Position numbers and translations under genes: made by a program. Below, in pieces: positions 657-44,389 of a stretch of 64,000 nucleotides of DNA. The notes under the pieces were generated by a model that was not told the DNA's origin, ran no database searches, and saw nothing but the letters and a program-made list of their open reading frames with translations. This DNA comes from Gracilariopsis chorda (taxonomy: Eukaryota; Rhodophyta; Florideophyceae; Gracilariales; Gracilariaceae): the NCBI GenBank assembly GCA_003194525.1, contig NBIV01000042.1:124001-188000 (forward strand). Reading direction: 5' to 3'. Positions within the stretch are counted from its first letter, which is position 1. Each line of letters starts with the position of its first letter.

Positions 657-669
657 GGGAGTCTCCCCT

Positions 670-6378: not shown

Positions 6379-6634
6379 CATTGCCGCGCGAACGGAGGGC
6401 GATAGGAAAGGATAACAAGGCAAGGTCCGTCGAAGACGGGGAACTCAAATGAGAATCACCGTTCAAAACGGGAAAGTTTATTCAAGGGAGCAGCTAGCTC
6501 CCCACAAAACTATACTACAATAGCCGGCTATGCCAGGAAAGAAGAACCGGAGACGGCGCACGCGCTTTTATCACCCATTTCCGTCTGGGAACCCTCCGCG
6601 TCCGCGGTCGTTTTCCCGTCTTAGGGGGGGGATA

Positions 6635-7461: not shown

Positions 7462-7586
7462 AAGGTCTAGACCTACAGAAAGTGGTAGCAGATGGATCAC
7501 TCACATTATCGGTTCCAGCACAAGCGGCGCCAGAACTGAGTGAGACGCAGCAATAGGCGTTTCGTACCGAAACGTTTCGCAAACGG

Positions 7587-9095: not shown

Positions 9096-10531
9096 TATCT
9101 GAAGCAAACTTCAACGTAAAGACCTGTTCTTTAGTTTTGTGCATTGAGAGACATGTACGGTGAATCTCTTTCGAGCTGGGTGAGGTTCTACAGCGATCTA
9201 GAGAACTTCACTGTGTGGCAATTGGTTCTCCAAAAATCTCCATAAATCACCGCGTTCTTAGAGTGAACGAAAATGTTCACTGAACCAGCACGGGGTTAAA
9301 GTGGGGGCCCGCGTTTCATGTTACATTAAATGAGGGGTGAAAGTGGGGTGATTTATGAGCATAATGGCGATCCAAAATGAAAACAAATTTTTAATATCAT
9401 CTCGCGGTGGGTTTAGTTTTGTTACTTGGATGGTAAAAAGATGTCAATTAATTCACTATCACATCCCCGTTGGAGATGGCCTAGAATTCAGTGGAATGTG
9501 TGGACAGAACTGCACGCTCCACTTAACGTCCAGTGCAGCACTTCAAAGCCACGATTTCATTAATTTCTGATTTTTCATGCATTTTCTTCAAAAATGACAG
9601 CAATAATGACGGTTCATGAAGAAATCGGTGATTTGCACTTGGATATGCAACCCAGACGCTGTCAGCTACTGTAATAAAACCGGATCATTGATATAAAGCA
9701 TAATCTCGATCCATACGTCATAATCACGATCGGATTGTCTGGTTTGAATCAAGTTTGATTGAACTGGCTCAAGGATAGGGTTGAGCTTGTGGCACCATAT
9801 CGGATACAGTTGACAGTTTATCCTCCGAGTAGACAACATGGAAGGCACAGCGGACCACTCCGTGTCCAAATTATGGAGTCCCCGGCTCCCAGCTCCAAAG
9901 TTTGTGGTCCCGAGCTGGTCCAGAACAGAGCTCAATAGGCGTCGTGGACCAGGCCCGTCGAGTCATTAAAAAAACATTTCTCCAAAGGAGGAGAAACATT
10001 TTAAATGTTTCAGACAACAGCTCCAAAATCTTTCAAACCGATTTACGCCTCCGCCTTCACCAGATGACGTTCAACTGTTCAGCTATTGTTAACACTGGCT
10101 CTCTCCATCGGTAAGGCCCGCGTCTTTGCAATTTTGGCGTCCCTCGACGCGCTGTCGTTCCCTTTCTCCCCCTATGCGCCTTCTTCACACGCCTCTCTCG
10201 ACGTGCCCTCAAAGAACAGAGCTATGCTCTTACGCAAATCTATGCGAGAAACTCTTGCGAGCTCGTTGCAATTTCGGACCGTAGGGCTTTGAAGAACATC
10301 AGCAGGACGAATTGGTTGGTAGAGGAAGAGGTGCAGTCGGAAGCGGCCTCACATACAATATGCGCAAATCTGCCCACAGAGGGCAGTAGGGGTGAGGAAG
10401 CTCCTGCAGGTTCGGGGGCCTCTCTGGTCCACGTGCCCAGTGTAGACTGCGAAGAAGAACTTCGTATTCAACCTGCTGAACACGAAGGCTACAACGTGAT
10501 GTAAACAGAACTACATCCTTCGCAGAGCGAG
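9096..10531. other. No recognisable gene; small hairpin
   Basis: I see no convincing coding sequence here. A 10-bp inverted repeat (ATAAATCACC at 9242-9251, GGTGATTTAT at 9347-9356) brackets about 95 bases and could be a terminal or subterminal remnant of the element carrying the nuclease gene. GC-rich palindromic words (for example GGAGTCCCCGGCTCC near 9872) occur further on. The last part probably belongs to the 5' region of the hAT relic. Confidence 0.4.
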
Positions 10532-13032
10532 GTGAACCGTTATGAAACTTTTAGCAGGGACGGATTCACAGAACGTCGAGATTCTAACGGAATGCCGGGA
10601 CGACGTAGCTCCGGTGGCCGCCCGAGTTCCGGGGGTTCGAATGGTGGGAGGAAAACATCGTACGCAAAGGCAAATTGCTTTGATGTGGTACTGCGGGACA
10701 GGGAGGCAATCGGGTCTATTTGCAAAGGATGCTGCAAGGAGATAAAGGATAGGCAGCGGCGTGCATCAGTCCTTAGCCTTCATGTGCTGTGGTGTCCCCG
10801 CTTTACTCAGGACATAAAAGAACGTGTACCTTCGGAATCGAGCGCACTACAGAAAGAGAGAGGGATCTTTTAGGCATCGGAACCCGACTCCAGCGGGAAG
10901 AGAGTTGGTTCCTTCTCTGCAGACTCGCCTGCAAATAAGATTCGCCGCCTTGAAGGCAGTGCTGAAGAAGCCCAAGCCCTCACTGTATCTCTATTAGAGG
11001 CATTGTCGAGCAAGCTTGGTCATTCCGTGCGCTCGACACTACGCAGTCCCGACCAAACGCATTTCTAAGGTTTCTAAAGTCGTCCGCCCCTTGGTATGCG
11101 AGGTCTTACTTTCCGTCGCGGTACTTGTTTACCGGACGGCAATTGGACGAACTGCACAAGTCTGTTTTCGAACGGGTGGCTTCGAGGCTGCGTTTTGCGC
11201 TACCGACCGGTTACGCTACTCTCATCTTCGACGGATAGAGTGACAGCACTGGGGCCCAGGTCGTTAAAGTTCTTCTTCGCACAGAAAGCTCCGGGCTCGG
11301 TTCGGGGCGAAGGAAGTTCTTTCTAGAATCGGTGTTCACCTCCCATGAAAGAGTGGGAGCGGAAAGTTATGTACGGATTGTTGAATCGGTATTGGAGAAG
11401 TTTGGGGATAGGGAAAGAATCTGTGCTGTTACGAGTGACAGTGCTCAATGCTTTCAGAATGCCAGGAAGGCTCTGACGCGAAAATGCCCCAAACTTGTTG
11501 GTGTACAAGATCAGGCTCATGTTGCAAACCTCTGAATGCAGGATATTGGAGGCTTGGCATGGATCAAGGATATTGTCGATACTGTCACTTGGATTACAAC
11601 CGAATTCAGGCATAAAATGAAGCTAGGAGCCCGCCTCAAGGAGGCGATAGAGAGCTATAACAGCACTATAGCTCGCGTATCGGACAATACCGTGCGAAAA
11701 ATGCCTCGCCATGCTGGCGAGGCAGCGGAGGGGATCTTTCGAGGTATGGATGGACGATTCCTTCTTCCTCCCTTTCCCGTAACAGCGGTAATGTTGCGTA
11801 AACCAGTCCGGACGCACTTTGCCTCCATTGAGGGCACGTTGGAAGCATTCCTTCGAACGCGAACCGTACTCCTGCACGTTTTGCAGTCCTATAACTTTGG
11901 ACCTAATCTGTGGATGGCATCGAAATCAGTTGAAAGGGAAAAGCGCAACAAGGTTATCTCTTTCATAGAGTCAAGGGTCTTTCTAGACAAGATAGAGGAC
12001 ATACACAAAATATTTAGGCTCCTTCGCCGTTATCTACGGGAGTTCGACTCAGATGATGCCAAGATCTTGGAAGTCGTACCGAAGACTATAGCCGTTAAGC
12101 TGGAAATGCGCAGATTGCCTTTAACTGCGTTTTATACTGCTGAACGTCGGGAAGAAGTCCTCCGATAATTCAATCGAAGAGAAAACGGACCGTTGGATGC
12201 CTCCATAAAGGTGCGTTTGTTAGAAGACATCCATTTTGCCTCACATCGTTTGGACCCGTACCGCTGTCCGAGGGATACAGACCCGTTTCTGAACCACTTC
12301 ATCTCCTTCTTAGAGTGGTATTGCTTGGGTCTGGAGGGGTCTACATCATCGCAGGGAACGGGAAAAGGTCGTGTGCTTCGGCAGTGTCTTCTCGAACAAT
12401 ATATGAGAATTGCATCTGAGTGGAACGACCAGAAGAATGTCGCCGAAAGCGATGATGTATACAAGGAGTTTGAGCAGATGCCGCTTGTTTATTGGAAATC
12501 GCTAGCAGACCGGCTGGAATACGCAGAACTACGGGAGTTCGCGTTAAGAAAACTTTCTATATCCCCTTCGTTTTGTGCAGCTGAACGCAGCTTCAGCATG
12601 CAAGGCAGAATTAGAACTAATGCCAGGAATCGGTTTCATACAGAAAAGGTGAAGAAACTGCCCTTTGTTCATTGGAATATGAAGTTGCTTGGCAATGCTG
12701 AACTCATACAGGCTGACTTCTGGCGATCCGTACACAGTAAAGAAGAGCAAGAGGAGGAGGAGTCCGAAGGAGACGAGGAGGAATTTCTGGAAGAGGGACC
12801 AGGAGGAAGGCACGGTACTGATGTTGAGGTCCTCGACCTGTTCGGGGAAGAGTACGAAGAGCTTCGCACGGTTGGATCTAATCTCAATGCTCATACGATC
12901 GGTTCGAGCGAACTGGTTACCTCCGCCATCAATAGTGAACGAATTCCAACAGAACAGCTCATTAATTTGCAAAATATGTCGCTGCGGCCGGCGGTAAGTC
13001 TCCTGCCATTATTTTTTTCACGAATGTGGTGA
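10532..13032 (+). pseudogene. hAT-superfamily transposase relic A
   Basis: The order of parts is that of hAT transposases. A BED-like zinc-binding segment comes first (ICKGCCKEI ... LHVLWC, about 10715-10800). A catalytic-core segment follows (VTSDSAQCFQNARKAL then VQDQAHVANL, about 11425-11532) and then MQDIGGLAWIKDI. The last part is the C-terminal dimerisation domain (PLVYWKSLADRL ... FCAAERSFSMQGRIR ... RNRFHTEKVKKL, about 12480-12660). From 11332 to 13032 one frame is kept, interrupted by TGA at 11533-11535 and TAA at 12166-12168; the N-terminal part is in a different frame. An acidic tail (EEQEEEESEGDEEEF) follows the dimerisation domain. No 8-bp target duplication or terminal repeat was identified. 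Related to, but clearly diverged from, the relic at 50202-52760. Confidence 0.8.
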
Positions 13033-14685
13033 CCTGATATAGGATCGGGCGGTCCGGCGGTTTGCCTCCTGGAGTGGCTGCATGGTACTTAAGAAAAACA
13101 GGCCTCATGCCATCGGGTCTGGGAGAGGAGGTTGTTGACATATGACGTAAGGTTTGCCTCACTTTTGCCTCTTCTATAACGAGCGGGGGTGGGAGGCTAC
13201 TTACTGTGGAGTGATGAGTTGGGAGTGTAGGGTTGGGGTGGAGTGCCGTTAATGTGTCTGCCGCTTGGTGTGAGGGGGGCACTGGCGGGATTTCTGTCGT
13301 TAGCAGGGCACAGGCTTTTGTTTATTCTCCTGCCAAGAAGGCTTTACGTGCCTTCTGCTGGGGGGAGTCACTCTGTGATTGAGCAGAGTTGGAACGAAGG
13401 TGGGCAACTCGTGCTTCATCCAAGAGTGTGTTCCCTTCACCTGCCATTGCCATGGAGATACGTCGTTTGATCAAGCGGCCGAGGGACAGAGAGTTGCTTT
13501 TTCTTGGATCGCCGCGCCCATTCTTGCGCAGTACTAGATTCGGTGTCGCAAAGATGCGCGCTAAAGTGTGAAGGTTCAGTGCTTCAGAGCGGGCTGTGTT
13601 ATAGTTGTTCAGAAGGTGGTAGTACAGCTCGATGTATGGGAGCCGTAGGCTTCGTGGAAGGAACTCGACGGTCGGTACGCGGAGGTTTAAGATCGTGGTA
13701 GTCGGGGCGCAGTCGCCAACTGTGGGTGGCAAAGGCATTCTGGTGGTAGTTTTTAGAGCGGTTTTTCTCTCTTTCTAAGACGAATTACGTCGCTTAGGCC
13801 GGCCACATCCATTGAGACGGCGTTGTTGGATCATTCAGCAATCGTTTGTGGCGTCACAGAAGAGGGCACAGTAGCCATAGGGAACCCATGTTTTTGATTT
13901 AAAGGCGTAGCATGTTCTTCTACGTTCGTTTCATGTAGGCTTGTAACTGGTTCAGGGGATGGATTTACCCGGCGGCGGAGGATGCAGGTGTGTCGTATCT
14001 CATCATCATCATTGTTGCATGCCTGTGCACGCGGTTCTTTCGGCGGCATGAGGTTCAAATCGCATGAAGGATTCCTATGCTTTAAAGCTTCAAAGAAGTT
14101 CTTCTCGTGTTCACACAGCGGTTCTGCAAAGTAGTATTGTGGCCCTCAGGTGGCGTTGGGAGATTCAAGTTGTTTAATTTCATCACGCAGTTTGAACGTC
14201 AATTTCATTAGGTCTGCTGTAGCGGACGATTCTGAGAAAAGGTCCAATATGTCGTTAACTGCAGTAAAGTTTAATTTTGTAAGCATTGGTAAGCCACGAT
14301 GTCGTAGAGCTGTCTCATAGAAACGTTTATAGGCAGGAAATATGAGTGGTACTGAACTTTTGGTTGCGTAAATGAGGAATTTGCGGGTGTCTGGTTTCTC
14401 TACTAGCGTCAGTGCCTTTCTGATGCGTTCTTCGGCAAAGCATCTGGTTATGTTAAATGGGTTCTTCAGGGCGTCATGGTCAGCTGATGTTTGAAGCAAG
14501 GCGGAAGCTTGTGGTTCGTGGCTGACGGATGGCGAGGCAGGAGTTTGAAATTCAGACTTTGTCGTGCAGATCAGATCCAGCGGATCTCCAGAAGATCCAC
14601 TGGATCTAACGTGGCCTTTTTCGCTGCTGAGAGGACAAGTGACAAGTAAATTGAATATACTCAACTTGGCCGCCAAGTTTGCCAA
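12962..14685 (-). pseudogene. Degenerate reverse-transcriptase-like (non-LTR type) fragment
   Basis: On the minus strand, 13282-12962 contains VRQTLRHMSTTSSPRPDGMRP followed by FVKKIMAGDLPPAAATYFAN. This resembles the start of non-LTR reverse transcriptase domains (a G/SPxGPDG-type motif, then a short helix with an xIxxGxxP motif). Upstream minus-strand pieces (13738-13322, with ARIFATPNLVLRKNGRGD and KRRISMAMAGEGNTLLDEARV; 14058-13831; 14685-14146) look like the N-terminal part of the same protein in several frames. The similarity stops abruptly near 12962, where the hAT sequence takes over, so the two elements are probably juxtaposed by insertion or deletion. No YxDD motif is present. Family assignment is tentative. 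Confidence 0.45.
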
Positions 14686-16227: not shown

Positions 16228-17424
16228 ATGACAATAGACCAACGTGCCGTGCGCCAACGCTCAAAAGGCAATATTACTTCTGCATCTGCCACGCAAGAGT
16301 CTGCTGCAGACGGAATGCCGCCGTCTATTCGGCAGCGCACTTTCTCAGAATCCTTGGCTTTCATAGCGGTGTTCAGCCTTGTGGCAGGTATAACCGCACT
16401 GACCGCGTATACCACTTTTCGACCTGCCTCAAAACCATGGGTTTTGCATCGTGATTCGTCCAAGACACCTGCTCTGGCAGCCAATGGAGTGCAGCACGAC
16501 GTATCAGACATTCGCCAGTCGATGCACATCGACTATGAACGACGACTAGAAGCGGCAACCCGAGGGGGTCGCAAGCTGCCTGTACTGACGTATCTCCGTT
16601 GGTTACACATCCCGAAAACTGGTACTTCCATAGTGAACACTTTTGTCCGATGGGGTTGCACAAATATATCGCAAGACACGTTCGTAGTTCCTCGACTGGA
16701 GAGACCGAAGGACCTCGAGGTATCTGTTGAAGCAACATTCATGTGGGATTGGTTCTTCCGAAACAAGACTGGGCGACAGTGGCTTGACGATCATTGCAAA
16801 GACCGGCTTGTCACCCCACATCCAACTACAAAGAAGAATGAGTACTCGTTTCACTTGCACCGACCGCTTCAGAGGTGGGAGATTCCTCACACCGCTTCAG
16901 TGTTTAGAATGCCGCGACAACGGTCATACTCAAATTACATGCATCTCAGCAAGCATTACAATGAATCCAGGCAGCCATTTGAAACACTTTACGACTTCCT
17001 CAAGAGAGAAGAGTTTTGGTCGCAGCACGCAAAGCTATTACTTGGCAGAAAATACCGCGATCAACGGGTCATCACCATTCCAGAAGCGCGCACAGCCGCA
17101 AAAATTGTATCAGACCACATTGCATTCGCTGGTCTTACAGAAGAGTTCCGCCTATCTTGCCGCTTGTTCCATGCCATGTTCGGGGGAGTTCCACACCTTT
17201 TGCAGTTCGAAAACGTGCGTCCTGGGCTTGACAGATATAAGCATAAAGGCCGAAGAACCGAATCCTTCAGATATGATGAGACGGAATTTAAGGACTGGCG
17301 TGATGAAGCTGATGAAATTGTATACGAGGCGGCCCGCAACCGTTTTTGGAACGACGTACGTAAATGGAAAGATGAAATTGAACTAGATGGATTGGGACCT
17401 GTACATATCAAGCAAAGCGTCTAA
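16228..17424 (+). CDS. Type II membrane carbohydrate sulfotransferase
   Basis: Predicted 398-residue protein from ATG 16228. The frame is open upstream to 15886, but those 114 codons look unlike protein, and starting at 16228 gives a standard type II topology: a short N-terminal tail, one hydrophobic segment (LAFIAVFSLVAGITALTAY, about residues 48-66), a stem and a lumenal catalytic domain. The 5'-phosphosulfate loop is HIPKTGTSIVNTF (about residues 126-137), and the 3'-phosphate motif is RMPRQRSYSNYM (about 226-237), with the usual R...S pattern. Such enzymes move sulfate from PAPS to sugar hydroxyls in the Golgi. In red algae they are candidates for agar or carrageenan sulfation, which is inference here. 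It converges with the Toc34-like gene, with 22 bases between the two stops. Intronless. Confidence 0.85.
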   Translation: MTIDQRAVRQRSKGNITSASATQESAADGMPPSIRQRTFSESLAFIAVFSLVAGITALTAYTTFRPASKPWVLHRDSSKTPALAANGVQHDVSDIRQSMHIDYERRLEAATRGGRKLPVLTYLRWLHIPKTGTSIVNTFVRWGCTNISQDTFVVPRLERPKDLEVSVEATFMWDWFFRNKTGRQWLDDHCKDRLVTPHPTTKKNEYSFHLHRPLQRWEIPHTASVFRMPRQRSYSNYMHLSKHYNESRQPFETLYDFLKREEFWSQHAKLLLGRKYRDQRVITIPEARTAAKIVSDHIAFAGLTEEFRLSCRLFHAMFGGVPHLLQFENVRPGLDRYKHKGRRTESFRYDETEFKDWRDEADEIVYEAARNRFWNDVRKWKDEIELDGLGPVHIKQSV

Positions 17425-19855: not shown

Positions 19856-21115
19856 TTATTCTTCATCACTGCTTTCTTCCTCAGCCGTTTCCAACCATTT
19901 AACAAAAGGGACCATCTGTTCTCTAATGATGTTACTACTAGCAGCGCTTCCCTTTTCCAGTCTAGTACCGCGGTTGAACCATCTCAAGATGGCTTCTTCG
20001 CTCAGCACATCCTTCTGATAGAGCAAATGCACGACGTGACAAAACACGGGAATCTTAAGTAACTCCATGTCGGCACTGATATACGCCTGAACACGTTGAA
20101 TAAGCTCAACTTGCATGGTACCCGACTTGCACACATGTTCCAGTAGTGGGGCGCCCTTTTGCGTAGCTATGAGCAATGCCGTACGATTCTGTTGTGTCTT
20201 TCGTGACATGTTGACGGAGGATACTATACCCGACCACGAAGCATGCACGGTTTCAGCTTCAGTAAGTGCGGTTTCCTCCCTTGTAGAGTCTACGAACTGA
20301 CGCAATTCTTCGTTGGACACATTTCCCAAACGTTCCGCAATTCCATCTCTGAGGGTTCGGATGTTATCTGTTTTGACGCGGCGTTCATTCTGTTCGACGA
20401 GCTTGTCCAGACCCAGTCGCTTGAAGTGTTCGGAAAGATCGTCTGCAGAACGCGATCCAGACGGCATCATATTCACCATAGTACCCGTATCAATTCCGGC
20501 CGATTTGAGTAACATCATGAGTTTATCGACGGATTGATTGTTCTGATGGAGGTAGGAGGTGATGATAGCGGTCATGAAATCCAGAGCAATGCCTGAGGAA
20601 ATTGCGGATTGTGAAGAAAGATATTTCAACACACTGGGTGATAACATCTGACGTTCCAACATGCCCGCGACGGCAACGGCAAGATTGGAACGTGACTTAT
20701 TCTCAAAGACGGCCAAACAAGAAAGGATCTTCGTGAGCACGCTGTCATACCTAACGCGTAGGAAGGGCTTTCTTCTCATAAGCTGGTGCATGATGTCGAC
20801 GACGGCAAGCACCTGTTCGGGAGACTGTGCAGAAAACAAGCAGTGCGCAGTTGGGGTCGGGTTCATTCTAACGGCGCCACCCGGTTCGACAATGTTTCCG
20901 GCTATCATGACCTCGCAAAAGACCTCTCCATAACGGTTGTAGTCAAAGTCCTCAGAGGAAAGCACGGGGATGGCGTCCGGGGAGATGCTATGTTTTTCAA
21001 GTTGTTCGAAGAGTCGATTGCGAAACGAATCGGGATCGAGCTTTGTTTGAATGTTTCGCTTTCTGGTCTTCGGAATGCCTGTTCCCAGAGTGGGACGCAG
21101 TTCTTTCGACGCCAT
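19856..21115 (-). CDS. eIF5-mimic protein (BZW / 5MP family, W2 domain)
   Basis: 419 residues from ATG at 21115, the same length as animal BZW1/BZW2 (5MP). The start MASKELRPTLGTG, then KTRKRNIQTKLDPDSFR and YNRYGEVFCEVMIAGNIVEPGG, matches the conserved N-terminus of this family. The frame stays open about 114 codons upstream, but that stretch is low-complexity Ser/Pro/His and unlikely to be translated. The C-terminal W2 (HEAT-like) domain ends in WLETAEEESSDEE, the aromatic/acidic box by which eIF5, eIF2B-epsilon and 5MP bind eIF2-beta and eIF3c. Family members compete with eIF5 in the preinitiation complex and raise start-codon stringency. Cytosolic. Divergently arranged with the CBM48-TPR gene. 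Confidence 0.92.
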   Translation of the reverse strand: MASKELRPTLGTGIPKTRKRNIQTKLDPDSFRNRLFEQLEKHSISPDAIPVLSSEDFDYNRYGEVFCEVMIAGNIVEPGGAVRMNPTPTAHCLFSAQSPEQVLAVVDIMHQLMRRKPFLRVRYDSVLTKILSCLAVFENKSRSNLAVAVAGMLERQMLSPSVLKYLSSQSAISSGIALDFMTAIITSYLHQNNQSVDKLMMLLKSAGIDTGTMVNMMPSGSRSADDLSEHFKRLGLDKLVEQNERRVKTDNIRTLRDGIAERLGNVSNEELRQFVDSTREETALTEAETVHASWSGIVSSVNMSRKTQQNRTALLIATQKGAPLLEHVCKSGTMQVELIQRVQAYISADMELLKIPVFCHVVHLLYQKDVLSEEAILRWFNRGTRLEKGSAASSNIIREQMVPFVKWLETAEEESSDEE

Positions 21116-33179: not shown

Positions 33180-33984
33180 TGTGGTGCAATGCCCCAAAGG
33201 GGAAAAACACCGAAAGACGTCCGGGATCTTCCTCTCACGAGGTGAACCCAGTTGGGTAGAGCCCTCCCAGAGGTGTCACGGCGAAGCCGGTTTGTAAGAC
33301 CAGGGACACCTGTCGCGACTCGCGCAGGGAGGTGAAGGCGAAGAATCGGTATCCGCGTGAGCGGGGTGTGATCCTCAGTAGAGGTATGTTTCCACGTAAG
33401 TAGGGGTGTGTGAGCGGATGCGCACACGAGGGCCGCGGATAGCGGGAGGTGCTACCCTAAAAAGGGGAAAGAGGAAGGACGAGTGGGTCGCGAGAGCGAC
33501 GAGTAGATACGGCAATGCCGGTAACAATAACCCTATACAGGGCGAAACACCAAGACACTTGGAACAATTAGTACTCCCAATGATGGGTCTCCTTTAGATG
33601 TGCAAGGGGGGTGAACTTCCGTACACTACGGTGCTTCCCTCCAAGGAGGAGTTGAGAACACGCGGAGGCGGTAAAGCTCAGAGCCAATTCCCCAGGTTGG
33701 GGTCCCTTGTTGGGGAAGGTTTACTGGTGCGACGGCAGTGCGCCGTCGCACTAAGTACTAGCTTCCCAGAAATGGGTGTGAAAATAATAAATAAAATTAA
33801 CTAAAATACTCCACATTCCGTGGCAACATCCACTACTGTGGCCAACCGCCAATTGACCCAAAACCGTGTCCCACGTGTCCATACCCACCGTAGTGGGGCG
33901 TAGTTCATATACACACTACACAACCGATAATATCGGGAAAACAATCAAGTACCAAGAATCCCTCCCTGAGGGCGTTGCACTTCA
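33180..33984 (-). repeat. 3' LTR of Gypsy copy B
   Basis: 805 bp, written on the plus strand as TGTGGTGCAATG...TTGCACTTCA. Almost identical to the LTR at 43585-44389. A G-rich polypurine tract (minus strand, about 33985-33997) adjoins its inner edge. It holds the perfect 10-bp stem pair GTGCGACGGC / GCCGTCGCAC also found in copy A. Confidence 0.95.
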
Positions 33985-34040
33985 TATCCCCCCCCTAAGA
34001 CGGGGAAACGACCGCGGACGCGGAGGATTCCCAGACGAAA

Positions 34041-35828
34041 ATGGGTGATCAAAGCAAGTGCTTTGTCTCCGGTTCTCCGGTAAATTCCTCTGCACCAGAG
34101 TCCTCAAGTACACAAACGACAACAACAGCCACCCTCGACAAGGGAGAAATGAGCGACGACAACAACATCAACAACCACAGCCAACCTCCGAGACTTCTCG
34201 GGCGATACACCACCGGTTTCCGGTCAGTTCCCCTGCCTCAGGGCGATCGAAATCCGGTACAACCGGGAAATACGGCTGCTGAAGCCGACCATCCCTTCGC
34301 ACTACCACCTTCGGTGGTGTCCTCCGGGACCACTCCGGTGTCCAACTGGCCAACCTACAACACCCTGGTGGGGCTCAACCCGATGAATCGGAATCACGCG
34401 TCGCGCCTGCGCCTTGCCCCGTGGTTTCACCCGGTCGCTGTCCTCAATGAGGGGTTGGTCACCGCTTATGCGGATGGTTCAGACACCCTTCCGGGGGATC
34501 TGCCCAGAGCAGTCACCACATCGTGGGATTGGCGTCACCGGATTGCGATTCCGCGTCACCACCTCCGAAGAAACTCGGGCGAGACCGTCGCTGCGGCGCA
34601 GACCGCGCTGACGCGCATGGCGTACCAACGGCAGAGCCGGGCTCCGTTCGATGTACCGGTCCCACCGGAGTTTGGCTTCGACATTAGCTACTTCCGCACT
34701 CGCGGGGAGATTGGGTACGGCGAGAACCTGTTCCGCCTCGAGACCCTCGCTTGGAGGAATTTCCCCGCAGCGCGGCAAGAGGCCCTTTGCTGGGAGCGAC
34801 CGATTATTCGGGCGGAGTTCAGGTACCTTCCCCGGCAATACCGGTCCAACTTTCTCCAAAACTTCATCCGCTACGAGCGGCGTTGGCGATCCCGATTCGG
34901 GTACTTTATCCCGTATCAGAACGTGGAGATAGAGCGGATTGCGCCGCCTCACCGACTAGGTCGGTATGTAGCACTCCCCGAGTGGTGGCGCTTCCATGAA
35001 GCCTGCCGGGGGTGCTACGTAGAACTTCCGCCGGTACTTACGTACCTCGGTTCGCTGCTCATGCAGGATCCCCGGTCGGGGTTGTGGTCCGTAGTGGTTA
35101 CGGAGTGGGCGGCCCGCAATGCGGCTTATATCCTCAACGAGGCGTACGACCAGTATCGTCTCTGGTTCCTTCAACCGCGCGTGCGGGCAGCGATCCGAAA
35201 CCTGGATCTTCGCATCCCCCTTGGGGGCCAGGCCAACAATGAAGAGGTCCTCCAATTACTTGGGTACATCGACAGCGTTAGCTGGAGTGAGGTCCCGCTG
35301 GAGCAAAGCGGTCGTCTGGATGGCGGCAGCGGTAACACCGGTGGCCCGGGACTGGGTAGAAACACCGCCCTTGCGGGTGCTTTTATCTACTTCGACCCCT
35401 GGGAGTTCCGGGAAATTTCCTCCGAGGAGGCGCGCGAACTTCGCGATGCGCCCCGGCATGTGCCGGAAGACCACCCGGTGGGGTACGTCGATTCTGACGA
35501 TTACTACCGCGCATACGGCGGGGATGACCCAATGGTCGATAACGATCCGGAAGAGCCCGGGGAGATGGACGTAGAGGACACCGGCGCTAGCGCGGAAGCT
35601 TCCCCAGGGGGGGTACCTCCGGCCGAGCCGGCTGCTGACCCTTCGGCGGCGAGTGCCGGACCTTCTATCCCCAGCGGGGTAACGGCGAATGAAAACGAGA
35701 TCATCGCGCGTTTTCTCCGGGGTGCCGGTCTTAGCGCTGCCGAGGTATCGGGGGATGTCACCACCATGGCGGACGCGTTGGCCTACCGCCTTGCTGGGGG
35801 TTACGCCCCGGGCAACGGCGAAGAGTGA
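34041..35828 (+). CDS. Antisense accessory ORF of Gypsy copy B (595 codons, unknown family)
   Basis: This long, whole-looking ORF runs opposite to gag-pol, between the end of pol and the 3' LTR, and does not overlap pol. The protein has a Ser/Thr/Gln/Asn-rich N-terminal tail (about 1-80), a central region (about 90-440) rich in Arg, Trp and Tyr that looks folded (for example YERRWRSRFGYFIPYQNVEI, EWAARNAAYILNEAYDQYRL), an acidic stretch (about 480-530) and a short helical C-terminus (NEIIARFLRGAGLSAAEV). I recognise no domain: it has no env-type membrane segment, RT or protease motif. AATAAA at 35917-35922 could end its own transcript, and the reverse side of the adjoining LTR would be the likely promoter. 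Copy A keeps an antisense start (MGDKSACAVSGS against MGDQSKCFVSGS). Antisense extra ORFs at this position are known in some plant Gypsy elements. Confidence 0.75.
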   Translation: MGDQSKCFVSGSPVNSSAPESSSTQTTTTATLDKGEMSDDNNINNHSQPPRLLGRYTTGFRSVPLPQGDRNPVQPGNTAAEADHPFALPPSVVSSGTTPVSNWPTYNTLVGLNPMNRNHASRLRLAPWFHPVAVLNEGLVTAYADGSDTLPGDLPRAVTTSWDWRHRIAIPRHHLRRNSGETVAAAQTALTRMAYQRQSRAPFDVPVPPEFGFDISYFRTRGEIGYGENLFRLETLAWRNFPAARQEALCWERPIIRAEFRYLPRQYRSNFLQNFIRYERRWRSRFGYFIPYQNVEIERIAPPHRLGRYVALPEWWRFHEACRGCYVELPPVLTYLGSLLMQDPRSGLWSVVVTEWAARNAAYILNEAYDQYRLWFLQPRVRAAIRNLDLRIPLGGQANNEEVLQLLGYIDSVSWSEVPLEQSGRLDGGSGNTGGPGLGRNTALAGAFIYFDPWEFREISSEEARELRDAPRHVPEDHPVGYVDSDDYYRAYGGDDPMVDNDPEEPGEMDVEDTGASAEASPGGVPPAEPAADPSAASAGPSIPSGVTANENEIIARFLRGAGLSAAEVSGDVTTMADALAYRLAGGYAPGNGEE

Positions 35829-36021
35829 GCTCCTTTTGTCCAGTTTTCCTGGTATTCTTTCCCTGGCTATGCCAGTTAGTGTAGTGTAGTATCGTGAGGA
35901 GCTAGCTGCTCCCCTGAATAAACTTTCCCGTTTAGAACGGTGATTTCCAATTAGCATTCCCCGTCTTAGACGGACTTTCCCTTTCTATCCTTTCTCATTG
36001 CCCTCCGCTCGCGCGGCAACG

Positions 36022-39000
36022 TTACCCAACTTGGGCATTAACCAGCGTGGCTGGGGCTGCAGTTCCCGTTTGACGGTGGTATCGCACGATCTGCGACCGT
36101 GGGAGGTGTTCAATTGGCTCCCACGTATCCCCACTGGGGTCGTACCCGTACCAGCGGACGCGGTATTGTAGAATACCATCCTGGTCCCAGGTGTGTCCGA
36201 CAAGTCGGTCTACTACGAACTCTCGTTCGTAGACCTGCCGGCCGTGCCGGGTGGTGGTTGTACTCCCTTGCGAAGGTTGTCCGCGGTGCGGTATAATGTC
36301 CCTTAGCAGGGTGTTCGGCGATAACTCCGACGTTGCCGTGCGCTGTCCTAGTGGCCGCTGCTCATGCGGGAAAATATCCCTCAAGAGGGTATGTGGTGTC
36401 ACGGTTTTCCCCGGCAAGTCATTCCCCATTGGGGTGTCGTTGTTCCCGTCTTCACGGTAGGCCAGGCGAACCGCCAACCGGCGGGGGACTTGAACTCCGC
36501 ATTCGCGGTTGAACTCACGAACCGCGAGTTTGCGGGAAGATGACCGCTCCTGCGGAATCGGCGTTTCCACGATCCCCTGGGGGGTCCCGTGCGGCACGGT
36601 GGTTGGATGGCAAACCGCCTCCCTGCCAGGCGCACGAGCGCTCTGCACCGTACGTTCCGGCGGCGCCGTGGTGTCCCCGGCTACTGGGGGGTTGCCTAAG
36701 GCTAACTCCGGTACACCGGTATTTTGGTCAAAATTCCCCTTTGGGGGGTGCCGGGCAGGTGCCGATGACACCCTTTTCAGGGGCCTGGCCGCTAAGTGCG
36801 GTGCACCGTCTCCATGAGGAGGAGCAGCGTCCGGTACGACCGGTTTCGAGCGTGCGATGGCGCGCGTTTTTCCCGAGTTCCTCGGTTCTTCGCCGCAGCG
36901 TTGCGGTAGTTGCGTTTCAGCTTCCCGTGTAACACGGTGTATTTGCCGCCTTTGCGGGACCTGCGCGTCTGGTTCCTGTTGCACAGCGCTGCCCGAGGAC
37001 GGGGGATTAGTGTCGCGTGAGATACTCCGTGCTCCGCGGTCAGTTGTCCGTATGGTACGGCGTGTTTCCCGTTGCGACGGCGATCTCATTCCTCGAAAAC
37101 GAGTGTTCTCCTCCCCCTCCTGAGACGGAGCGGCGGGATAAGGGATAACATGCCCCGCCTGGCGGGTGTAGATTCGCGCCATAGGGGCGGGCACAGAGAG
37201 GCCCGAATTACCCGGCTGAGCCGGTGAGTCCGACAGGGTCGGTAGGTCTGAGAGTCCCCGGGAGGGGTGTGGTAGCACGGTAGGCCGTCTCACCACCGAT
37301 GTATCGGATGCAGAGCCATATTCCAGCGTAGGGTCCAGCGTAGCTGGTGCAGCCTCAGTCGAGGGTGGCGGAGCTAGCACGATGCGATCGCGAGATAACC
37401 GCTCATGCGCGTCACCCATTTCCACAACCACTGTGTCCGTCGTGACGGAGATAACCTTGAAAGGACCATCCGCCAAAGGCGAGAGCTTATGGTGCTTCTC
37501 CCTTTCAGGGTTGTAGTACTCCTTGCGGACGAATACGAAGTCCCCGGAGTTGATCTGTTCCGGTTTGCCTCCTCGCAAGCGAGCATCGAAATTCCGTTTG
37601 TAGGCGGCTTGGGCGTGGTCCATCGCCTTCCGCGCTGCGGGTACCAGCTTGGTCAGCCATGCTTTCCACTTCTGGCGGTAATCCTTCACAGAAGGGAACG
37701 CGTCCAACGTAGGTTGGGATTCCAACGCCATTGGCGGGGGTGTCCGTGAAAGGACCAACTCGAAAGGGGATATTCCGGTAGTCCGGTGTACCTGCGTATT
37801 GTACGCAAAGGTCACGGCATCCGTGTAGATATCCCAAGTCTTGGGGTGGTCAGCCGTGTAAGCACGGAGAGCTGCGAGCATTGTCCGGTTGAAACGCTCG
37901 ACCTGCCCATTAGACTGGGGATGATACGTGGTCGTGAAGAGATTCTTCACGTCCAGTATCCGACAGACGTCCTGGAAAAATCGCGATGCGAACTGTTTCC
38001 CGTTGTCGGAAAGTAGCTCCAAAGGAGGTCCGTAGGCAAACACCCAATGCCGCACAAAGGCGTGAGCGACCGTGTAGGCGGTAATCCTCTTTAGAGGGAC
38101 TGTCCAAACTAATTTCGAGAACCTGTCCGTAATAACGAGTAGGAACTTGTTGCCTCTCCTGGTAGAGAGCAATGGTCCGATAATGTCAATTGCGACAAAC
38201 TCGAGCGGCGCCCTGGCGGGGAATAGCTTCATCCGTTCGGAGTGCTTCCGGAGTTTGACCCGGTTCTTCGCGCATTGCGTGCAAAACCGCACCGTAGCGT
38301 AGCAATCAACCGCCATGGCGGGCCAGTAGAAATCCCTGCGAAGGGTTAGATAAAGCTTCCTCCCACCGGAGTGTCCCCGAGTTTCGGGTAATGCGAAAGG
38401 TGCAATATCCGCTTCTGTAGCGTGTGCGGTACCACAACTTGTGGGGTAGCCTCGACGGTCCTCACGAGGTAACCAATGTCGTTCACCCCGAAGGGGAGGT
38501 TCTCTCCGCCGTTGAGGCGTGCACGTATCCTTGTACAGAAGGGGTCCCCGAATTGTTCTCGGATCATTTCCTCGGTCTCAACCGGTACATAATTTCCCGG
38601 TATGGGTTTCTCAGAATCATCTCGCGATGCGAGTAGGTAGTCGAAGTCAGCATCTTCGTCCCAGTTTTCTGGCTCAGCCTCGACGGCACATTCCGGATCA
38701 TCCGGGTCCATTGCCATGAAACATGGGACTTCATCATCCTCCGTTGGGAGTGCCTCCCCACTTGTGGGTAAACGCGACAGAGCGTCGGCTTGGGTGTTCT
38801 GCGCGCCCTTTTTATAAATGACTTGGAAGTCATATTCCGCGAGGCGGAGTCTCCAGCGCATGAGGCGTCCCGACGGGTCGGAGATATTCATTAACCACCT
38901 CAGTGAGGAATGATCCGTGTACACGGTGAAATGGACTCCCATAAGGTAGGGGCGCAGAGTGGTCATCGCCCATACGACGGCGAGGCACTCTTTCTCCGAT

Positions 39001-41287
39001 ACGGAGTAGTTCCGCTCATGGACATTGAGCGAGCGCGACCAATAACCAATTGGGTGTCGTTCCCCCTCGGGGGTGGTTTGAAAAAGAGCACACCCGACTT
39101 GGTAGTCGCTCGAGTCCGTATCTACGGAGTATGGCAACCCAAGTTTTGGGAGATGTAGGATTGGTGCTGATGTGACAGCCTCCTTCAAGGAGTTAAAGGC
39201 TTCCGATTGCTCGGGCGTAAATGTTCCCAGTTTTGGGGGTTCCCCTTTCGCAACAACGCGTTCAGGGGCGCTGCAGTATCCGAAAAGTTCGGGATAAACC
39301 GTCGATAGACGTTGACCAGCCCCAGAAAGGAGCGCAGTTCCGTTTGAGTACGGGGTTCTTTCGCCTCAACGAAGGATTTGACTCGAGCTTTCTCGATCGC
39401 TAACCGTCCAGGACGGATAATGTGACCCAGATACTTCACAGTATCTGTGAAAAACTCGCATTTCCTCAACTTGAGGGTAATTCCCGCATCGCGGAGTACG
39501 GTCAGCACGTCTCGGACGTGAGTGAGATGGTCGTCCAACGAGTTGGAGAAGATGATAATATCATCAAGGTAGACCAGACAACTCCGCCACTTAAAGCGGT
39601 TGAGTAGAATATCTACTGCACGCTGAAAGGTGGCGGGGGCGTTGGTTAACCCAAATGGCATCCGCTTGAAGCGGTACGTTCCTGCATGGCAGGTGAATGC
39701 GGTTTTGTCGCGATCCTCCTGTCTGACAGGTACTTGCCAATATCCCCAATTGGCATCAAGGGCCGTGAACACGGTGGCGTCTCCAAGGGAGTCAATGCAC
39801 TCGTCCATACGAGGGATGGGGTACGTGTCCCTAACAGTCACGGCATTGAGCCGGCGGTAGTCGACACAGAACCTCCAGGTTCCGTCAGCCTTTAAAGCCA
39901 GTACAACTGGGGATGCCCAGGGCGATTGAGCGGGCTCAATCACACCTGCGCGGAGCATCTTGTCCACCTGGGACTGTTCCTCTTCCCGAGCTTTCGGACC
40001 TGCCCTGTAAGGGGGTTGTGCAACCGGTCGCGCACCGGGGATTAAATCGATCCGGTGTTCCGTTGCATCAATCTCGCCAAGCGAGCCATCCCACATTGTG
40101 GTGAATTCCCGTAACATAGTACGGAGTTTGTTGCGGTGCGACTCTGGCACGTGGCTGAAGTCCAGCGCTTCAAGTGCTTTTTCCGGATCAATCCGGTCAT
40201 TGCTCGATGGAGCATTGTCCTGTGGAACAGGTGTGGTTCGCAATTCCGAGTTACTCGGTATGTTCGACGCTGAAGTAGCGGTTTCCTCCCCCTCCTTAGA
40301 CTTGACGTCTTCGGACGGCGGGGTGAACTCCTCAGAAGAGGTGGTAACTCCGAGTACATCGGCGGCTGTCATCTTCGTTGGCAGCATTCCCATAGGATGG
40401 GGGGTTACACTCCCAATTACTTGGTGTTTGACCAGATACTGGGGGTGTTTGCCAAGGTTGGCAACCAATATCCGGAAAGGAACATCCGGGGAAATGGAGA
40501 CAATTCCATTAGCCAGCGCCAGCTGGGATTTCTCGTACAACGAGGCGAGGGGTTGTATAACCCGAAGACCGTGTTGACGGGAATTTACCTGTACCCAGAC
40601 TTGGGACTCCGCCGGTATAGAAACCGAGGCAGCGACGCGGAGCTTGGTGGACTCACGGGACGCGGGCGGTGGTTCCTGCGCAGCAGGGAGCGGAACTTGT
40701 TTCCGAGAGGACCGCTTTAGCGGGCGGCGAACAATCGGAACCGACGATCCGTCGTCAAGTTCTACACGCCTGAGGCGGGGCCTGATTGCGTCGACAAATC
40801 TGTCGCAGTAATCACATCCCAGTATGACTGGTGCTGCCAGTGAACGGCAAACGATGAAGTCCAACTTCACCACAGATGTACCAAGTCTCACGACGAGGTC
40901 CACTGTGCCCACCGTTTGTAACGGATTGTTGTTCGCATCCGAAATGTCGGGGACCGCGTCAGAGCGGATACGCGACCGCACAAGCGGGGGTAACAATGAT
41001 TCCACGACAAAGTTGGGGCCTGCACCTGTATCCAGGACGGTGAGAAACCTCACCATAAACTGGGGATCAAGGCCAAGGTCGGCATAGACCTTATAGTTGC
41101 GCTTGGCCATGATCAAGACTCTACCGGGAATCCGGGGATTTTTACTCCGTATCCACGGGCGACGCAACACACCGAGGTGCGCAGAGTCCGCGTCAGCGGT
41201 GTCTTTCCTCGAGAGGACTTTCACCGGGGAGCGAGGCGAGGACGCCTCGGGCGCCAACAGCCTCGTTTTTGAGGACGCCTCTCCCAA
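36022..41287 (-). pseudogene. pol: pol polyprotein with chromodomain, copy B (broken)
   Basis: Same order as in copy A: protease (VLDTGAGPNFV), RT (YLDDIIIF), RNase H, integrase with HHCC domain and core (YHPQSNGQVERFNRT), a long Pro/Arg-rich linker, and a C-terminal chromodomain (RVRWYGYDPSGDTWEP near 36140). It begins a few bases after gag in a different frame. The reading is broken in about one or two places, so this copy is a fossil despite its young LTRs. Confidence 0.92.
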
Positions 41288-41304
41288 AGGGGAGACTCTT
41301 TCAG

Positions 41305-43479
41305 TTAGTTTTCCGCCTTCGGCGGTGGGTTGGTTTCCTCGACAACGAGTGCTTCATCCCGTTGACGGGGGTTTCTATCTGCATAAGCGGGGGTTGCAAC
41401 GGATGGTTGCGTGATCTCCCGAATCGGGGTGTATGAAGCTTGCCGCGCACGCGGGGTCTGTGGTAGGGCGTGAGAAAAGTCCGTTTTAGCACGGAGGTAG
41501 GAAGCCGTCGGGACGGAACGTTTCTCCTCTGGAGTGAGGGCCTCATAATTTGCCACCACCTTGGCCATATCCTTCAGTGAACAAATACACTGAGGAGAGG
41601 TATGGCCATGGGCATAGCACAGGTGGCAAATGAGAGCCAGCACCGCGACACGCGGATTATTATTCCGAGTATCGGAGAAGCGAACCGCAGGGCGGGTGTC
41701 AGTCCATCCAGGCCGTTGATAACGGGATTGACCGTTTGAAAACGGGAGTCGTTGGGGTTGAACCCGACTGTTACCACCGTATAGAACGGGATCTTCTGTT
41801 CCCGTATCATGGGTCATCTCCGTCGTTGACGGTAACTCACTGGTGGGTATCGACACACCATCCCCCTGCGCTAAATGCACGGTATCAAATCCCTGTCCAG
41901 GGTTCCCATCCGCGGTGAGCGGGAGAGAGGAAGCTTCGCTTTCCAGCAACAACGCCTTGGCGGATTTAGACCGATTGTTCGGAGTTCTTGCACGAAGTGC
42001 ATCCCCTTCCGCTCGAGCGTGTTGGACCAGCTCGAGGTAGGTGATCCTTCGCTTGTCCTCCCGATAACGGGTAACTACACTCCGGATTGCCGGGTCAAGA
42101 CCATCAATGAACATCGTACTGCGCTCCCCAGCGGGGTATACGTTACCACATCTGTGGAAAGCCTTGTTAAGGCGCACCGAGTAATCGGTCTCGGTCTCTC
42201 CAGCACGCTGGCGTGTATCTCGCAAAGCGAGGATAGCCTGCTGAATAGCGGTGTTGGTGGCGTAGGAGCGCAGAAGATACTGCACAGCCTCCGGCCAGCA
42301 AGTAACTCCTCCCTCGGAGGCGCGAGAAGATCCTCGGACAGAGGTGTATTGGTCCTCGGCCACTCCCCGTAAGAAATACGGTAAAGCCAAATAGGCTTGT
42401 CCCTCATTCATACCGAGGATATCGGCCTCCGCTACAAAGCGGGATAGGAAATCTAGTACTAGGACTGGGTCCTCTCCAGTACAATACTGGTTGCGGAGCG
42501 AGAGCTGCATTCGCTTAATGCATTCTCGCACCTTTCCCGTACCACGGGGCGTACGTCCAAGTGACGAATCTTCAAGCCGGTAGTACCGGTATGATAAAAG
42601 CTTCCGATAATCCGGGTTTGTCGGTTTCAATTCCCGGAGACCGGGGTGTCTTCTCCCCTTCTGGCGGGTTCGGACCACACCTTCAGTGGCCGATGACCGC
42701 TTCGAGCGGGAGGAGTAGCCTCGCTTCTCGTCCTCCGAGTCGGAGTCCGAGGAGCTCGAGCTAACCGAATGGTTTCGGGGTGAGTCCGACGATGTCGAAG
42801 AATCGGAGTCCGAATATTTTCGGTGATGTTTCCGTCGGTGACGGCGTTTCTTCTTCCCAGCAAGCTGGTCGTTGTGCGATGCCTCGTTTACCGGATCACC
42901 CGGGGATGGTTTGTCCATGAGGACGAACTGCTCCAGCGTCTCCAGGCGGGCACCAATCCGATCAAATCGGGCTTCAACTCCTTCGATGAAGGCGGCGGGT
43001 TGTCCCAAACTCTCCAACACGGAGTTGACGTCAGACCGTAAAATACGGAGCTCCTCGGCGACCTCCTTTACGGGGGTTGCCGAGACCACCTCTTGGAGGG
43101 ATTTTAGTTCCCCTACAAGGGTGTCATGGGCGGTCCACAGAGCGCGGACCTGGGATTCCAGGGAAGTTCCCTGGGGGGTGTTATCACCCGTTCCACGGGG
43201 GCTTGAAGCCGCGACAGCGGGAGCAGGCCGGGGTGCCTGGGGCACTGCGGCAACAGCCGGAGTCGATGCTGCATTCCCCTGCGGGGGTGATAACGAGGGC
43301 AAAAGGAGGTTCCGGGGTTCCCGGTCGGGGGTATCATTCCGCGATGAAGCGGCGCCAGCACGGCTGGAACTTGTCCGTATAGGGATACGGGGTACGAACC
43401 GAACTTCGGAAGAGTCCGCGTTGTCGCGGGAGCGACTACGCGTAACCACTGGCTCCGCGTCGGAGGGATTTCTCGACAT
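41305..43479 (-). CDS. gag: gag of Gypsy copy B
   Basis: 724 codons, open throughout. It has a low-complexity N-terminal region, a Lys/Arg/His then Ser/Asp-rich block (HRRKHHRKYSDSDSS), a retroelement capsid-like region (RQRAGETETDYSVRLNKAF ... STMFIDGLDPAIRS) and the zinc knuckle CHLCYAHGHTSPQC near the C-terminus. It forms the particle core and binds the RNA in this family. Gag lacks an obvious membrane signal. Confidence 0.9.
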   Translation of the reverse strand: MSRNPSDAEPVVTRSRSRDNADSSEVRFVPRIPIRTSSSRAGAASSRNDTPDREPRNLLLPSLSPPQGNAASTPAVAAVPQAPRPAPAVAASSPRGTGDNTPQGTSLESQVRALWTAHDTLVGELKSLQEVVSATPVKEVAEELRILRSDVNSVLESLGQPAAFIEGVEARFDRIGARLETLEQFVLMDKPSPGDPVNEASHNDQLAGKKKRRHRRKHHRKYSDSDSSTSSDSPRNHSVSSSSSDSDSEDEKRGYSSRSKRSSATEGVVRTRQKGRRHPGLRELKPTNPDYRKLLSYRYYRLEDSSLGRTPRGTGKVRECIKRMQLSLRNQYCTGEDPVLVLDFLSRFVAEADILGMNEGQAYLALPYFLRGVAEDQYTSVRGSSRASEGGVTCWPEAVQYLLRSYATNTAIQQAILALRDTRQRAGETETDYSVRLNKAFHRCGNVYPAGERSTMFIDGLDPAIRSVVTRYREDKRRITYLELVQHARAEGDALRARTPNNRSKSAKALLLESEASSLPLTADGNPGQGFDTVHLAQGDGVSIPTSELPSTTEMTHDTGTEDPVLYGGNSRVQPQRLPFSNGQSRYQRPGWTDTRPAVRFSDTRNNNPRVAVLALICHLCYAHGHTSPQCICSLKDMAKVVANYEALTPEEKRSVPTASYLRAKTDFSHALPQTPRARQASYTPIREITQPSVATPAYADRNPRQRDEALVVEETNPPPKAEN

Positions 43480-43568
43480 GAGAAAATACCGTTACGACGG
43501 GAAACGATCACGGAACTTCCGGTGAGTGAAAACAAACCTCGTAAGAGGGAAAACAAAAACCGATTCTA

Positions 43569-43581
43569 GGTCGGGAGACCA
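43569..43581 (-). other. Primer-binding site of Gypsy copy B
   Basis: On the minus strand TGGTCTCCCGACC starts three bases inside the 5' LTR. TGG complements the CCA end of tRNAs, and the stretch implies a primer tRNA ending GGTCGGGAGACCA. I cannot name the tRNA. Confidence 0.6.
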
Positions 43582-43584
43582 CTT

Positions 43585-44389
43585 TGTGGTGCAATGCCCC
43601 AAAGGGGAAAAACACCGAAAGACGTCCGGGATCTTCCTCTCACGAGGTGAACCCAGTTGGGTAGAGCCCTCCCAGAGGTGTCACGGCGAAGCCGGTTTGA
43701 AAGACCAGGGACACCTGTCGCGACTCGCGCAGGGAGGTGAAGGCGAAGAATCGGTATCCGCGTGAGCGGGGTGTGATCCTCAGTAGAGGTATGTTTCCAC
43801 GTAAGTGGGGGTGTGTGAGTGGATGCGCACACGAGGGCCGCGGATAGCGGGAGGTGCTACCCTAAAAAGGGGAAAGAGGAAGGACGAGTGGGTCGCGAGA
43901 GCGACGAGTAGATACGGCAATGCCGGTAACAATAACCCTATACAGGGCGAAACACCAAGACACTTGGAACAATTAGTACTCCCAATGATGGGTCTCCTTT
44001 AGATGTGCAAGGGGGGTGAACTTCCGTACACTACGGTGCTTCCCTCCAAGGAGGAGTTAAGAACACGCGGAGGCGGTAAAGCTCAGAGCCAATTCCCCAG
44101 GTTGGGGTCCCTTGTTGGGGAAGGTTTACTGGTGCGACGGCAGTGCGCCGTCGCACTAAGTACTAGCTTCCCAGAAATGGGTGTGAAAATAATAAATAAA
44201 ATTAACTAAAATACTCCACATTCCGTGGCAACATCCACTACTGTGGCCAACCGCCAATTGACCCAAAACCGTGTCCCACGTGTCCATACCCACCGTAGTG
44301 GGGCGTAGTTCATATACACACTACACAACCGATAATATCGGGAAAACAATCAAGTACCAAGAATCCCTCCCTGAGGGCGTTGCACTTCA
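43585..44389 (-). repeat. 5' LTR of Gypsy copy B
   Basis: 805 bp, the same length as the 3' LTR, with about four differences seen by eye. Bounded outside by AGTCC (44390-44394), matching 33175-33179. Confidence 0.95.

Follow-up and report, generated by a model that had tools for sequence, protein, structure and literature searches.

Uniform mini-hairpins throughout a Ty3/Gypsy retrotransposon clade of the red alga Gracilariopsis chorda, probably kept by selection during replication

A stretch of 64,000 nucleotides of the red alga Gracilariopsis chorda (contig NBIV01000042.1, positions 124,001 to 188,000 of the forward strand; hereafter the window) carries two copies of a Ty3/Gypsy retrotransposon, copy A (1 to 7464, plus strand) and copy B (33180 to 44389, minus strand), which are studded along their whole length with short perfect hairpins of nearly one size. 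The hairpins occur in the long terminal repeats (LTRs), in gag, in pol and in an antisense open reading frame (ORF), their size follows a strict ruler, and their loops are freer to change than their stems. Furthermore, among copies of the element, stem changes are avoided in the variants that have been transmitted, but not in the private ones. We consider it probable that the element represents a Gypsy clade with uniform mini-hairpins of 12 to 13 nt over its entire sequence, kept by selection on the single-stranded form during replication.

Counting maximal perfect stems of at least 5 bp with loops of 0 to 8 nt, we obtained 21.4 stems/kb in copy A (window 1 to 5900; n = 126) and 23.1 in copy B (n = 259), compared to 6.7 to 8.8 in seven other ORF stretches of the window (1.4 to 2.8 kb each; five host, one Copia and one hAT). 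Dinucleotide shuffles (100 each) gave 7.7 stems/kb for A and 7.9 for B, with maxima of 11.0 and 10.0 and resulting ratios of 2.8 and 2.9; a several-fold excess over chance had been suspected in a preliminary description of this DNA. The seven stems named in that description (126 to 138, 145 to 157, 303 to 315, 2203 to 2221, 2227 to 2239, 2392 to 2406, and a 9-bp stem with a loop of 4 at 2014 to 2035) all lie where it placed them; at least eight had been claimed between 126 and 599, where we counted 15, and about eight in the reverse transcriptase (RT) segment from 2161 to 2410, where we counted six. The host stretches from 16800 to 17000 and from 20041 to 20280, described as ordinary, hold 0 and 1 stem. 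As for the relics of other elements, also described as ordinary, this is true of the Copia and hAT stretches, which fall within the 6.7 to 8.8 range, whereas a separate second Gypsy relic was not located in the window. The excess tracks the element ends when the window is followed in 500-bp steps, and it depends on loop length: relative to the dinucleotide shuffles, loops of 1, 2, 3 and 4 nt are enriched about 3.7-, 5-, 8- and 4-fold, and loops of 5 nt only slightly (1.2-fold in A, 1.6-fold in B), with no excess for loops of 0 or for loops of 15 to 40 nt pooled (0.92- and 0.82-fold in A and B, respectively). As a separate observation, the interval from 7000 to 13500 presents a mild stem excess (1.53-fold; z = 3.6), only part of which is attributable to the end of copy A; loops of 15 to 40 nt are raised there as well (1.21-fold; z = 2.6), and the plus strand carries an open frame of 512 codons, with no Pfam match, at 7557 to 9095.

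A second measure, the greedy non-overlapping count of mini-hairpins with 5-bp stems and 3-nt loops (5/3), 4-bp stems and 4-nt loops (4/4) or 4-bp stems and 5-nt loops (4/5), yielded about 358 hairpins in the 11,210 bp of the full-length copy B (31.9/kb) and 31.3/kb in copy A, compared to 9.7/kb in host genes. The proposed extension of the pattern through LTR, gag, pol and antisense ORF was borne out, the LTRs, gag, two pol pieces and the antisense ORF of copy B each holding 30 to 35 hairpins/kb. In particular, there are 28 in the 5' LTR (43585 to 44389, minus strand, 805 bp) and 27 in the 3' LTR (33180 to 33984, minus strand), 33.8/kb in the gag frame (41305 to 43491, minus strand) and 30.1/kb in the antisense ORF (33999 to 35828, plus strand, 609 codons, without a Pfam match). 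Codon shuffles and codon-plus-dinucleotide shuffles gave z scores of 13.7 and 13.3 for gag, 14.3 and 12.3 for one pol piece of copy B, 10.0 and 8.4 for the other, 6.5 and 6.3 for the antisense ORF, and 16.7 and 16.7 for the pol of copy A; the means of these shuffles were 25 to 56 hairpins in the three main classes, against 63 to 184 in the five element ORF stretches. Two host genes under the same shuffles showed no excess (z of -1.0 and -0.7 for one, 1.1 and 0.6 for the other). An equal density in shuffles preserving codons and dinucleotides had been named beforehand as the result that would speak against the pattern; the element ORFs lie far above them (z of 6.3 to 16.7) and the host genes do not, and the excess thus survives that comparison. 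The G+C content of the element (0.56 to 0.57, compared to 0.47 to 0.54 in the compared host stretches) might suggest that the stems result from a GC-rich composition or from codon bias. However, the excess withstands dinucleotide, codon and codon-plus-dinucleotide shuffles and is absent at loops of 15 to 40 nt; chance, composition and codon bias are ruled out by the three shuffle types, and we give this explanation practically no credence. The array of mini-hairpins is therefore confirmed as real, and it is sharper than first claimed.

The enriched shape is a helix of constant outer width, best represented by 5/3 (13 nt) and 4/4 (12 nt), with 4/5 (13 nt) also strong. Exact 5/3 helices exceed expectation 11.5-fold in copy B, 7.3-fold in a second family (E) and 5.0-fold in a foreign relative (L073), both introduced below, and helices with 6-bp stems and 1-nt loops, which are likewise 13 nt wide, do so 14.3-, 10.3- and 13.3-fold, respectively. 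A sixth pair outside the 5/3 stem is avoided, its probability being 0.11 in B, 0.15 in E and 0.19 in L073 against a background of 0.25 to 0.26. Three features go beyond the preliminary description: the fixed width of 12 to 13 nt, the avoidance of a sixth pair, and the reappearance of the pattern in a second family as well as in a foreign relative. Hairpins of copy B mostly have C on the 5' side and G on the 3' side in their outer two pairs (83% and 74% of 100 5/3 hairpins), and their flanks are A rich; such CC/GG ends are present in A, B and E and absent in L073. The loops of the hairpins carry no motif, and there is no clear locking to codon phase, with one pol piece (pol2) uneven. The centers of neighboring hairpins show a spacing peak at 17 to 23 nt, and the strongest period is 20.2 nt in both copies A and B.

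The 30 family copies examined, the best-scoring among the matches listed in the genome, all carry 18 to 21 stems with loops of 1 to 4 nt per kb, compared to 2.5 to 3.1 in control loci. By the same count, 15 Copia and 25 other Gypsy loci of the same genome carry 2.2 to 6.6. For 16 of these 40 loci the 13-nt measure was obtained: 12 lie at 0.72- to 1.19-fold, and the remaining four (L045, L048, L059 and L061), raised to 1.45- to 2.42-fold, each hold an LTR of the hairpin family. A trait of all transposons in this genome is ruled out for the sampled Copia and other Gypsy loci, which have no excess save that of family LTRs. The LTR in L045 represents a 75%-identical LTR subfamily, present in at least 40 places at 92 to 100% identity. 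An LTR 74 to 75% identical to the L045 type directly adjoins an L045-type LTR in three contigs (C729, 8242 to 9836; C757, 1776 to 3369; C1068, 10683 to 12279). The internal regions beside LTRs of this 75% type (four 3-kb pieces, L080 to L083) have no match to A or B except for a family LTR in L082; one of these pieces, L083 (C141, 32503 to 35502), for which blastn gave no match to either copy, holds 1.67-fold hairpins, mostly 4/4 (28 compared to 11.2).

Family E lies nested inside copy L026, with its continuation in L084; it has 67.7% DNA identity to B over 3455 columns and carries 40, 77 and 99 hairpins in the three classes, compared to 6.1, 27.8 and 27.2 expected. The foreign relative L073 (JALZUP010000409.1), a Gypsy gag-pol fragment in a bacterial metagenome-assembled genome (MAG), is 47 to 48% identical over pol and 72% over an RT overlap of 128 residues; it holds 27 5/3 hairpins compared to 5.8 expected (2.35-fold overall), without CC/GG ends. 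A trait of all Gypsy relatives is ruled out, with six others (L071, L072 and L074 to L077; RT identity of 33 to 44%) at 0.76- to 1.26-fold. L073 and these six are contigs filed under bacterial or archaeal MAGs that encode a Gypsy-type pol, and they are probably eukaryotic contamination. Scanning of viral contigs found no relatives there. Among metagenomic proteins, relatives reach up to 64% identity. Over a 4.3-kb piece of pol in the 30 copies (L001 to L030) and copy B, A-like and B-like sequences are 97 to 100% identical along the first 2.7 kb and about 59 to 77% along the last 1.3 kb, a sharp mosaic which suggests recombination between subfamilies.

Substitutions were compared among 30 aligned copies over this 4.3-kb pol piece (31 rows, with the truncated L026 omitted for inflating the private class). 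Private substitutions fall in stems in 90 of 313 cases, without avoidance (odds ratio against sites, 0.99; p = 1.0), whereas substitutions found in at least two copies do so in 15 of 101 (odds ratio, 0.43; p = 0.0013) and those found in at least three copies in 2 of 52; the contrast between private and shared changes has p = 0.0055, or p = 0.011 with L026 included. Since shared substitutions have passed through replication, and they avoid stems while private ones do not, selection during replication is favored over templated correction. With synonymous changes only, stems take 31 of the 108 that are private and 8 of the 57 that are shared, against an opportunity of 31.5% (p = 0.036), the pattern being held in part through synonymous choice, as proposed earlier. 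Taken together, the data suggest selection on hairpin density and size, with hairpin positions turning over. In the pol stretch with 77% identity between A-like and B-like copies, 15 hairpin centers are kept, compared to 5.0 (standard deviation, 2.0) in simulation, and B has 32 hairpins, compared to 14.9 left by simulated drift from A. Between family E and B, 18 centers are kept (4.9 simulated) and the density amounts to 85 hairpins (28.1 simulated); 67 hairpins of E lie at other positions, where about 23 are left in simulation. Paired substitutions in stems, proposed earlier as a test, were seen in the LTR: both partners had changed in 8 of 121 pairs, compared to 1.9 in shuffles (0 of 500 reached 8; slid partners, 0 to 4).

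The same data bear on a mutational origin, according to which RT, by switching templates or by snap-back synthesis, would use one arm as the template for the other and let perfect palindromes build up without a function. Such a process would suit the pairing, which is of Watson-Crick type only (interior pairs, pooled: 269 compared to 49.8 expected) without wobble excess. It would also suit the loops, which change faster than linkers (0.30 to 0.33 compared to 0.23 in pol, also at second codon positions, with 12/57 compared to 31/299; 0.32 to 0.43 compared to 0.19 to 0.26 in the LTR), as well as one exact hairpin-loop inversion among 10 changed loops in one comparison. However, 205 private changes (from an earlier set of 17 copies) destroyed 26 stems and created 4, and of the 13 stem variants of the ORF that are shared, none has a compensating change on the opposite arm. 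In hairpins intact in both copies, counted from both copies, double changes of stem pairs number 4/151 and 4/90, compared to 33/123 and 34/83 changed loop sites. Loop inversion as a general process was rejected, with no inversion among 22 changed loops in four other comparisons, and copying does not explain why the width is constant, why a sixth pair is avoided or why the ends are CC/GG. The quasipalindrome correction put forward in the preliminary description is thus not supported by the substitutions; a mutational origin is largely refuted, and we regard it as quite unlikely.

Several results weigh against selection on a uniform, element-wide array. A related element on contig C280 (lineage D) is weaker, at 1.87-fold in two pieces and with 15.5 gag hairpins/kb compared to 31/kb in B. 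In an 800-nt RT piece, the E1 copy reaches 2.7-fold and four more E-like copies, two of which are 96% identical to each other, 1.8- to 2.8-fold, compared to 5.2-fold in A and 7.2-fold in B. The contrast between private and shared changes is not significant for non-synonymous changes alone (p = 0.25). When not conditioned on intact hairpins, stem rates are only modestly below those of linkers (0.18 compared to 0.23 in pol; 0.235 compared to 0.282 in gag from B to D), and in the LTR they are 0.186 compared to 0.194 with stems taken from A3 and B5, and 0.147 compared to 0.231 with stems taken from L045. The LTR alignment that shows the paired substitutions comprises only 7 related rows. G-U pairs, which an RNA structure would accept, are not clearly enriched (83 compared to 73.7 expected; A-C pairs, 110 compared to 86.4; pooled). 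Finally, the long-range coherence of the period exceeds that of gap shuffles in A (0/400 shuffles) but not in B (34/400) or L073 (264/400), so that a 20-nt lattice reaching beyond neighboring hairpins is only suggestive.

With regard to the form in which the hairpins would act, stems of 4 to 5 bp would not be expected to arise within duplex DNA, which points to a single-stranded form, either genomic RNA or minus-strand complementary DNA (cDNA). Folding of one 800-nt gag piece against 20 shuffles each gave z scores of -3.2 for sense RNA, -4.4 for antisense RNA and -4.35 for DNA, the sense RNA being no better folded than the other two. Among shared stem variants, 8 make G-U and 2 make A-C pairs, compared to 41 and 25 outside stems, a bias that is not significant. 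Therefore, with no clear wobble preference and no strand advantage in folding, the single-stranded replication form could be RNA as well as cDNA. Of the ordered RNA structure suggested earlier, the fold energy below that of shuffles holds for this gag piece, whereas no clear G-U preference and no sense-strand advantage were seen. It is also possible to think of a signal in duplex DNA, namely, palindromic CC-N9-GG sites at steps of about 20 bp, which a dimeric protein would bind or which would be in step with the DNA helix. The CC/GG ends of A, B and E, the period of 20.2 nt, near two helical turns, and the lack of a clear strand bias are in line with this idea, but pairing is by no means limited to the CC/GG ends, the inner pairs matching to an extent that site recognition would not need, and L073 has hairpins without CC/GG; we hold such a signal to be very improbable.

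Considering the use of hairpins selected in single-stranded form, the uniform size, the avoidance of a sixth pair and the distance between neighbors speak more for a ruler-like binding unit than for selection on stability alone. Each mini-hairpin could be a candidate docking unit for the element's nucleic-acid-binding protein, probably the nucleocapsid part of Gag, which would coat and condense the genome at steps of about 20 nt, as a dense form of dispersed packaging signals. Docking of Gag would account for hairpins of one size, for the avoidance of longer stems, for the freedom of the loops and for the neighbor spacing; among specific uses, this putative role in packaging or condensation is the likeliest, and we offer it as a tentative possibility. 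Alternatively, selected hairpins could serve evasion, short regular stems hiding the RNA from small-RNA silencing or nucleases while being too short to resemble double-stranded RNA. This explanation shares the selection part with the one that we prefer and differs in use alone. The neighbor spacing of 17 to 23 nt is near the length of small RNAs; the coverage of the whole element and the avoidance of longer stems are also as evasion would have it. Yet G-U pairs would serve equally and are not favored, and further Gypsy and Copia families that are abundant in this genome manage without hairpins, so that evasion seems unlikely to us. Returning to a binding unit, it is conceivable, though we lean against the full statement, that the clade evolved a genome-long lattice of one-size 13-nt hairpins, about one per 20-nt step where neighbors are present, partly rewritten at new positions upon divergence. 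Gag, pol, LTRs and the antisense gene would then carry an additional code, for the most part independent of sequence, which a protein ruler would read on the genome in its single-stranded form. We know of no described retroelement or virus with such an architecture.

If selection does place uniform hairpins by the hundred in all genes of a retroelement, this would be a very strong case of a structural code over the protein code, and the clade would offer a testable system for genome recognition, condensation and protection in LTR retrotransposons; for Ty3, the accessible part of one account states that packaging sequences are "not precisely defined" (PMC11381356). Furthermore, synonymous and LTR sites of mobile elements would not need to be neutral, which bears on insertion dating.

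In other respects, the carrier is an ordinary Ty3/Gypsy element. In copy B, 300-nt direct repeats lie 10,405 apart, and the two LTRs (805 bp; 99.5% identical) flank the coding region. The gag frame, without a Pfam match, shows by eye a CX2CX4HX4C zinc knuckle. The interrupted pol region (36022 to 41353, minus strand), in which RT, integrase and a chromodomain were recognized, consists of open pieces in differing frames (39185 to 41353, 38346 to 39365 and 36022 to 38577). The chromodomain (PF00385; 1.8e-10) lies in the last of these, after integrase, as in chromoviruses; no Pfam match to it was found in the open pol frame of copy A (604 to 5409, plus strand, 1601 codons), which presents RVT_1, RT_RNaseH, Integrase_H2C2 and rve in the Ty3/Gypsy order. 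Copy A is cut by the window start and ends with a 3' LTR (6635 to 7464, plus strand) 92% identical to that of copy B; it lacks the antisense-ORF block (element coordinates 8543 to 10314) and has about 438 additional bases at 5049 to 5487. Elsewhere in the genome, Copia and other Gypsy matches recur on the same strand at even steps (about 6.1, 6.35, 5.68 and 5.68 kb in contigs C673, C509, C10 and C573, and in others), which resembles head-to-tail element arrays but may be an assembly artifact. A neighboring host protein of the 5MP type is 83% identical to that of Gracilaria domingensis and 89% to that of Agarophyton chilense, which places the host among the Gracilariaceae.

In the open-access literature, searched through titles and abstract openings and with subscription papers and preprints outside its scope, we found no description of such a hairpin array. 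Quasipalindrome correction by template switching yields perfect palindromes with short loops; different from it, the Gypsy array has neither paired arm changes nor a gain of stems in new copies. In the genome-scale ordered RNA structure (GORS) of some RNA viruses, coding sequence shows more self-folding than shuffles do. The 800-nt gag piece behaves alike as RNA, but its antisense RNA and DNA fold equally well or better against shuffles, and the array consists of discrete uniform mini-hairpins without wobble excess, also in LTRs and the antisense gene. Dispersed packaging signals number tens per genome. In small RNA viruses, as set out in the accessible part of work by Twarock, Stockley and colleagues (PMC6281560), these are many short genome-wide stem-loops that overlap coding sequence and are thought to contact the shell protein, which resembles the Gypsy array, but they have a common protein recognition motif. 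The Gypsy array comprises about 358 hairpins in 11.2 kb, with free loops and a fixed width of 13 nt; CC/GG ends occur in A, B and E and are absent in L073, and the loops have no motif. Within the same superfamily, the accessible part of PMC11381356 describes Ty3 genomic RNA with local hairpins at functional sites and its binding by Gag3, that is, single hairpins at cis elements and not a uniform genome-long array. Dispersed packaging signals and GORS are the closest systems and, as far as known, neither equals the Gypsy array in density, size ruler, lack of a wobble excess, and coverage of LTRs and the antisense ORF.

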